A DNA stretch of 59,364 bases from Gemmatimonadales bacterium (GTDB lineage: Bacteria; Gemmatimonadota; Gemmatimonadetes; Gemmatimonadales; GWC2-71-9). The stretch is taken from positions 1-59,364 of the forward strand of contig DASUJH010000033.1 of assembly GCA_036279355.1 (NCBI GenBank). The letters are read 5' to 3'. The notes under the pieces are model-generated. The model saw only the letters and a list, made by a program, of their open reading frames with translations. It made no database searches and had not been told where the DNA came from. The translations under genes were made by a program, and so were the position numbers. Every line of letters begins with the position of its first letter. The stretch's first letter is position 1. Positions 33,862 through 35,223 of the stretch are shown here, piece after piece.

Positions 33862-35223
33862 CTACGCCACGGCCGCCTTCGCGTACGAGGCGTCGAGCAG
33901 CTCGACCGGGTGGGCGACGCGAACCGGGAGCCCCGCCGCGCGAAGGCCGGCGCCGATCTGCATGAGGCAGCCCGGATTGCCGCTGGCCACGACCTCGACC
34001 GGCGGCTCCGCCTCGCGGATGCTGGCGATCTTGGCCGCGAGCACGTCGCGCGCGAGCGCCGGGTGCAGCAGCGAGTAGATGCCCGCGCTGCCGCAGCAGC
34101 GGTCGGAGCCGGGCAGGACACGGAGCCGGAGCTCCGGAATCGCGCCGAGCACGGCGAGCGGTGCCGCGTGCACGCGCTGCGCGTGCTGCAAGTGGCAGGG
34201 CGCGTCGTACGCGACGTCGATCGGGAGCGGGGCGCCGCGCCTTGGCCCCGCCTCCGCCAGCAGCTCCGAGACATCTCGCACCCGCGCCGCCATCCGCTCG
34301 GCCTTGTCGGTGCCGAGGAGATGGCCGCAGTCCTTGAGCAGGGCGCCGCAGCCGGCGCTGTTGACGGCGACGAAGTCGGTCTCGGCCGACCCGGCCGTGA
34401 ACGCGGCCAGGTTGGCGCGCGCGAGCGCCTCTGCTCCGGCGCGGTCGCCGGCGTGCTCGTGCAGGGCGCCGCAGCAGGCCTGGCCCTGCACCTCGATGAC
34501 GCGGTACCCGTTCGCCTCCAGGACGCGGCGGGTGGCCGCGTGGACGTGGGCGAAGAGCGTGTCCATCACGCAGCCGCGGAACAGGGCGACGGATGGGCGG
34601 GCGGACGGCCGGACGAGATCGCTGTGGGGGCGCGGCGCAGAAAGGGACCGGGGCGGAGCCGACTGTCGGTTTGTCGCCGGAGCCCCCGTCCCTTTCTGCG
34701 CCGCGCCCGAGCGAGCTTCGGAGGGTGCGTGCGCGCCTATCCGTGAGCCTCTTGTTGCCGCGAGCATGCCCATCGCGAAGCCGACGCGGCCCGCGCCCGC
34801 GGCGCGGGCAGGAACCCCCGTCGACCGCGCGAGGCGGGCCGCCATGAAGATCGGACGCCAGAGCGCACGGCGGCGGAAGATGGCGAGGACCAGGCGCGCG
34901 AGCGGAGGGAGGCCGCGGGCGTTGAAGAGCTGTTCGCGCGCGGCCTCAAGGCCGCGGCCGTAGCCCACGCCGGAAGGGCAGGCGGGTTCGCAGCCGCGGC
35001 ATCCGAGGCAGGCGTCGAGGTGCTGGGCGAGAGCCGGGTCGCCGGCGCCGAGCTCGCCGCGCTCCAAGGCGCGCATCAGCACGATGCGGCCGCGCGGGCT
35101 GTCCGCCTCGTCGCCGGTGGCGAGATAGGTCGGGCAGGCCGGGAGACAGAAACCGCAATGAACGCAGGGGTCGAGCGCGGAGTAGCCCGTGGCGGCCCCG
35201 TCCGGCGCTGCGACCTCAGCCAC
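33862..35223 (-). CDS. glcF: Glycolate oxidase iron-sulfur subunit GlcF, carrying an in-frame repeat insertion
   Basis: The 453-residue protein has two ferredoxin-like [4Fe-4S] motifs (Cys20, 23, 26 and 30 in CVHCGFCLPACPTY; Cys72, 75, 78 and 82 in CLGCRGCEPACPSG). Two CCG domains follow (RGCVMDTLF, QACCGALHEHAGD, DRCCGSAGIYSLLHP). GlcF passes electrons from the GlcD/GlcE flavins to the membrane quinone pool. Between the halves, residues about 164-210 form a low-complexity stretch (GAAQKGTGAPATNRQSAPP) coded by the hairpin element at 34628-34708. Without it the length is about 407, the usual size. The frame is kept, so the protein is probably still made. The start overlaps glcE by 8 nt. Confidence 0.88.
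   Translation of the reverse strand: MAEVAAPDGAATGYSALDPCVHCGFCLPACPTYLATGDEADSPRGRIVLMRALERGELGAGDPALAQHLDACLGCRGCEPACPSGVGYGRGLEAAREQLFNARGLPPLARLVLAIFRRRALWRPIFMAARLARSTGVPARAAGAGRVGFAMGMLAATRGSRIGAHAPSEARSGAAQKGTGAPATNRQSAPPRSLSAPRPHSDLVRPSARPSVALFRGCVMDTLFAHVHAATRRVLEANGYRVIEVQGQACCGALHEHAGDRAGAEALARANLAAFTAGSAETDFVAVNSAGCGALLKDCGHLLGTDKAERMAARVRDVSELLAEAGPRRGAPLPIDVAYDAPCHLQHAQRVHAAPLAVLGAIPELRLRVLPGSDRCCGSAGIYSLLHPALARDVLAAKIASIREAEPPVEVVASGNPGCLMQIGAGLRAAGLPVRVAHPVELLDASYAKAAVA
34628..34708. repeat. Long hairpin element inside glcF
   Basis: The arms at 34628-34654 and 34682-34708 are 27 nt long and complementary at 26 positions (each has an AGAAAGGGAC-type block). The 29-nt centre (34654-34682) is the conserved core shared with the element at 30023. 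On the minus strand it is translated as GlcF residues 172-199. Degenerate octamers (GGGCGGGCGGACGG-like) lie just to its left on the plus strand, at about 34594-34613. Confidence 0.85.

Follow-up and report, generated by a model that had tools for sequence, protein, structure and literature searches.

Rickettsia palindromic elements (RPEs) and the protein-coding palindromes of Wolbachia and Methanocaldococcus are dispersed palindromic repeats that often sit in frame within unstructured segments of unrelated proteins (PMC10969869, PMC2996958); RPEs end in CGTC (PMC3733652). The GTAG/CGTC REPs are repeats of 20–40 bp with a stem of 5–13 bp, a GTAG or CGTC tag, and RAYT transposases. They are dispersed hairpins, mostly intergenic, although several bacteria also have some inside genes. 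In the recB genes of two Xanthomonas species, REPs are reported at nearly matching positions (PMC3733652), which sets a precedent for recurrence at one place. The STRR sequences of cyanobacteria consist of ~7-nt units whose arrays form hairpins; they are dispersed and of unknown function (PMC2670836), and one is placed inside the RNase P RNA gene in a passage of PMC2858038 that cites Vioque 1997. Long hairpins also lie in the coding sequence of many mitochondrial protein genes of hairworms (Nematomorpha; PMC10380579).

The palindrome analyzed here lies in glcF (ORF 33862–35223; coding sequence 33865..35223), on the minus strand of the window, by which we mean the whole 59,364-nt stretch of DNA that was analyzed. 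The 453-aa ORF comprises a Fer4 half, a linker, and two CCG domains; a Pfam search placed Fer4 (Fer4_8) at residues 16–85 and the two CCG domains from residue 211 onward. This predicted domain make-up fits GlcF, and the ORFs next upstream look like GlcE and GlcD. With 30 aligned GlcF sequences as input, AlphaFold2 gave a model with a mean pLDDT of 86, with values >90 in most blocks of both halves and a coil at residues ~161–207 (pLDDT 43–62, mostly <60), which places the insert in a disordered linker between two confidently modeled halves.

The hairpin element spans 34628..34708 (81 nt), and its translation on the minus strand is GAAQKGTGAPATNRQSAPPRSLSAPRP. Its arms are 36 nt long, 86% complementary, and separated by a 9-nt spacer, and the outermost 21 bp form a perfect stem (arm 1, 34628..34648; arm 2, 34688..34708; plus strand). 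Within the element, at 34652..34684 on the minus strand, sits the glcF copy of a conserved family core, GGCTCCGGCGACAAACCGACAGTCGGCTCCGCC, with 2 mismatches to the family pattern. On one side, at 34590..34627 (minus strand), lie the remnant of a short tandem array and a GCGATCTC spacer, which appear in the linker translation as SDLVRPSARPS; these flank other copies as well, and BLAST matches to other copies extend into this side of the glcF hairpin. The fold z-score is −6.4 for the plus strand and −7.9 for the coding strand, and none of 200 dinucleotide shuffles folds as well. The hairpin is the strongest found in a scan of the window (score 29); the same scan of five shuffled windows returned no match at a score of ≥20.

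The hairpin is in frame and free of stop codons and encodes ~27 residues (about 172–199). The open frame suggests that it is translated as a short disordered stretch rich in Gly, Ala, Pro, Ser, and Gln. The original prediction of an in-frame hairpin inside the GlcF linker is borne out by the inverted repeat, the fold statistics, and the uninterrupted 453-aa ORF. Its figure of ~46 added residues is too high for the hairpin itself, since that number also takes in the flanking array remnant and native linker. In the GlcF tree, the linker of 60 aa compares with mostly 26–32 aa among the relatives of its eight-row clade. Two of these nearest relatives (G012, 57 aa; G003, 48 aa) have linkers that are long for other reasons, so the empty site in GlcF is less clean than the one in the M16 peptidase described below.

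A BLAST search of the organism's own genome (3.25 Mb in 60 contigs) with the glcF hairpin region found ~16 related places. The core pattern GGCTCCGCCGACNNGNNNACAGTCGGCTCCGCC (33 nt, ≤3 mismatches allowed) has 12 matches in this genome and none for the reversed control. The same pattern has no match in 60 relatives, and the core family is lineage-specific. The list of copies comes from BLAST and pattern searches, and the true number is probably higher because some of the contigs, several in all, break off within a copy. Eleven copies, when aligned, show a nearly invariant core and divergent arms, and the two arms of one copy match each other better than arms taken from different copies do (permutation p = 5e-5). 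Beyond the hairpin itself, many copies carry the GCGATCTC spacer and arrays of GGCGGACA-like 8-nt units, inverted on the two sides.

A second copy in the window, at 30022..30105 (core at C33:30047–30079), is intergenic between the convergent genes at 29346–29969 (plus strand) and 30137–31639 (minus strand). Sequence inspection showed a (GGCGGACA)n tandem array of repeat family D12 to its left, at 29975..30003 on the plus strand. A further (GGCGGACA)n array, which lacks a hairpin core, occupies 27952–28000, just upstream of an MFS-like ORF (28067–29344) and near a minus-strand VWA-type ORF. A MITE would show terminal inverted repeats of a known transposase and a target-site duplication; the ends of the element vary among the compared copies, and no such duplication could be defined. 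A search of the window against Rfam gave no match, and neither the element nor its core matched phage, plasmid, or viral-contig collections.

Simple gene calls place six copies inside ORFs. One of these, at C60:148431 (L014:1501–1565), is at the 5′ end of a lipoprotein-like gene or immediately precedes it, and so may be outside the gene; if the start codon is within the repeat, the residues RRSVRLSAG may belong to the signal peptide of the gene product. The other five are in frame in unrelated proteins, all in linkers or low-complexity stretches: between the Fer4 and CCG halves of GlcF; between the two halves of an MFS transporter (C59); between the M16 and M16_C domains of an M16 peptidase (C56); between domain III and the C-terminal domain of DnaX (C60:24448), where only half an element is present; and in a low-complexity stretch behind the kinase domain of a Ser/Thr kinase (C28). 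Stop codons are absent from nearly all six frames of the element, but a single phase (AAQKG.GA...SAP) serves in all five genes; it is rich in Ala, Gly, Pro, Ser, and Gln, in contrast to the Arg-rich alternative. Were all phases equal, such agreement would arise about once in 81 cases, which is suggestive of a nonrandom phase but is not proof of it. The M16 linker is 49 aa long here and 19–29 aa in 29 relatives, none of which has a hairpin there; the MFS loop is 64 aa long here, as against 20 aa in the two relatives whose first half of the protein is the most similar (76–81% identity in that half). The M16 and MFS positions are thus clean empty sites in these relatives. Together, the ~16 related places, the five in-frame genes, and the two empty sites uphold the proposal of an inserted, dispersed palindrome.

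The alignment of GlcF homologues that the original prediction had proposed as its check found no conserved linker common to all relatives, the result that would have spoken against insertion: length (26–60 aa) and sequence both vary, and many linkers hold hairpins unlike the present one in sequence. The hairpin units include GGAGGTTG in G024 and L078, GGCGGATC in G022, GCGGAACG in G018, GGCATGGC in G033, GCGGAATG in L079, and ACGGCATT in L084. A hairpin score of ≥14 is reached by 14 of 62 GlcF linkers, as against 2 of 675 segments of matching length drawn from the rest of those glcF genes, and 12 linkers score above all 200 codon shuffles of themselves. On a GlcF tree computed without the linker, the hairpin label needs ~10 changes, at least 7 of them forced by well-supported branches, where changes of any kind, not gains only, are counted. 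Two further linkers contain repeats of another kind (CATTGCGAGG...CCTCGCAATG in that of G031, L038; TGTCATCCCGAG...GGATGACA in that of G012, L035), which look like widely seen bacterial palindromes. Separately, within a few kilobases of glcF, an inner hairpin of similar sequence is found at L182:16696–16811 (G024) and L183:8947–9084 (G018), bordered by inverted CAGACGCC-type arrays; each may represent a terminator with repeats on either side, and the locus is the same in the two genera.

G024 and L079 are sister species. Their glcF flanks are 89 and 91% identical at the DNA level, as against 57% for the linker in a gapped alignment. The two linkers are unrelated in sequence, and both are hairpins with tandem arms. 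The outgroup L078 has the G024 type of hairpin (80% linker identity), and the simplest reading of these sequences is a swap in the L079 line, with one type replacing another. Neither type is confined to glcF, and each is dispersed in the genomes: the GCGGAATG hairpin has 30–65 matches per genome in four species and the GGAGGTTG hairpin 34, 23, 10, and 0 matches per genome, the number of places being smaller because the counts list both strands of some hairpins.

The MFS loop likewise holds unrelated tandem-armed hairpins in eight relatives and in L301. The L301 gene (G061:C210), with its hairpin in the TM6–7 loop, has a change of frame further downstream and has partly lost its second half; it is either a pseudogene or an assembly error. 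Apparent in-protein copies in MacB, QueA, and a cyclase of relatives were discarded, as Pfam searches of the open frames put the copies upstream of the domain. In 554 kb sampled from G033, 17 hairpins score ≥19, as against none in shuffled sequence, and ~10 of the 17 have 7–9-nt tandem arms of different units; the idea that each genome has one characteristic unit was dropped, since G033 alone has many. Among 46 distinct tandem-armed hairpins in relatives, which represent fewer than 46 independent units because most come from two searched families, the periods are 7–10 nt, and 44 have a G-rich 5′ arm and a C-rich 3′ arm. Translated linkers therefore tend to begin rich in Gly and Arg and to finish rich in Pro, Ala, and Ser. 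We tentatively consider the GlcF linker and the MFS TM6–7 loop as standing landing sites at which hairpins are exchanged over short evolutionary times, perhaps by hairpin recombination; this is possible, though on balance doubtful. If it held, a disordered segment would be rewritten wholesale while the flanking domains stayed almost unchanged.

The tandem construction of these arms bears on a different origin, in which the hairpins are made on the spot by slippage of a tandem array and a fold-back (template-switch) copy onto the opposite strand, and nothing moves. Such an origin would account for arms that consist of short tandem units in relatives, for arms that vary from copy to copy while each still pairs with its partner, for the kinase copy (C28), whose arms are unlike those of every other copy, and for a unit sequence that seems to drift between relatives (L081, L043, L117). 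Fold-back copying alone leaves unexplained how a near-invariant 33-nt core came to be present in a single genome both within unrelated genes and at intergenic sites, or why similar loops recur among the full-length dispersed copies of relatives. We regard local formation as the complete explanation as unlikely.

That position is kept while sequence changes, in both GlcF and MFS, and that the fold is very strong could also point to a functional mRNA hairpin held at a domain boundary, for example to pause the ribosome while the first domain folds, with structure selected and sequence free. The same repeats are scattered between genes. Hairpins are lacking in most GlcF linkers of the set, in most MFS loops, and in every other M16 linker, which makes a general RNA role at domain boundaries unlikely; we give this reading only a slim chance. 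A third alternative is that ribosomes skip the hairpin, or that the RNA loses it, so that the protein does not contain it. Hairpin-bearing inserts that ribosomes skip are known in the mitochondrial byp elements and in T4 gene 60. A skipped insert needs neither frame nor openness, whereas all five copies in genes, like the linker hairpins of relatives, keep the frame and contain no stops, and the mild phase employed is always the same, with the caveat that in-frame cases are the most easily found by the search used; skipping is very improbable. Simple low complexity of a GC-rich linker, or an artefact of assembly, to which the variable, low-complexity linkers throughout the family and the draft state of the genomes (hairpins can mislead assembly) would lend themselves, has a negligible probability, as a reading without any repeat family is refuted by the dispersed core (12 places, none in the control), the structure is never reached by shuffles, and the same picture is seen in genomes from independent studies.

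The reading we favor, with a probability of about 80%, is that the glcF hairpin belongs to a lineage-specific family of dispersed palindromic repeats and was inserted in frame into a tolerant linker, and that the same process operates family-wide. The element consists of the conserved 33-nt core within long complementary arms, beside which 8-nt units often form inverted arrays. Copies would have spread through the genome to many sites and would persist between genes, or in genes only where the structure tolerates disordered residues and the phase is mild; the inserts are probably near-neutral. Fold-back copying may re-match or lengthen the arms after insertion, which would explain why arms differ between copies yet pair within each copy. 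In other species, other hairpin repeats, with arms of 7–10-nt tandem units, the G-rich arm first, and a conserved loop, occupy tens of places and would have reached this GlcF linker and this MFS loop in independent events, once replacing one another. No transposase tied to the family was found: the only Y1_Tnp gene in the genome (C59:9598–9936) is ~7 kb from the nearest copy, with none adjacent. A RAYT was considered as the carrier and was rejected, as this sole Y1 transposase gene has no copy beside it.

Compared with the described systems, the element resembles an RPE in being a palindrome of many copies dispersed in one genome and inserted in frame in five protein genes that are unrelated to one another; relatives have empty sites for two of these, M16 and MFS. 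It differs in that it belongs to another phylum, in that its core is confined to its own lineage (0 of 60 relatives), and in that one linker holds unrelated hairpin families in different species; CGTC is absent directly at either foot of the glcF, MFS, and M16 copies. Thus, the likeness to RPEs that was originally proposed holds for behavior and not for membership: the element works like an RPE and is set apart from them by the described foot tag and stem size. With the REPs it shares dispersed hairpins that lie mostly between genes and sometimes inside them, but at 81 nt, with a perfect 21-bp stem instead of 5–13 bp and no GTAG or CGTC at the foot, it is of another build, and a RAYT gene flanked by copies is not present. 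The likeness to STRRs is one of form only, in the 7–10-nt periods of the 46 hairpins of relatives and the 8-nt arrays that flank the organism's own copies; here, both arms are made of 7–10-nt units placed about a loop or core, and protein genes contain copies in frame. The hairworm inverted repeats are similarly embedded in coding genes but are mitochondrial, AT-rich, and perfect. The combination of many tandem-armed hairpin families at the same linkers across a bacterial family was not found in the open-licence literature searched.

For this soil-type bacterium of the Gemmatimonadota, with in-frame copies in at least five unrelated proteins, and for its relatives, these results suggest that repeated DNA repeatedly rewrites the disordered segments of functional proteins. 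Reports of translated palindromic repeats have come mostly from Rickettsia and a small number of further microbes; in the present case they are family-wide, with many repeat families in the same linkers. The comparative series from empty to occupied to swapped site makes the birth of disordered segments from selfish or mutational DNA datable and testable.
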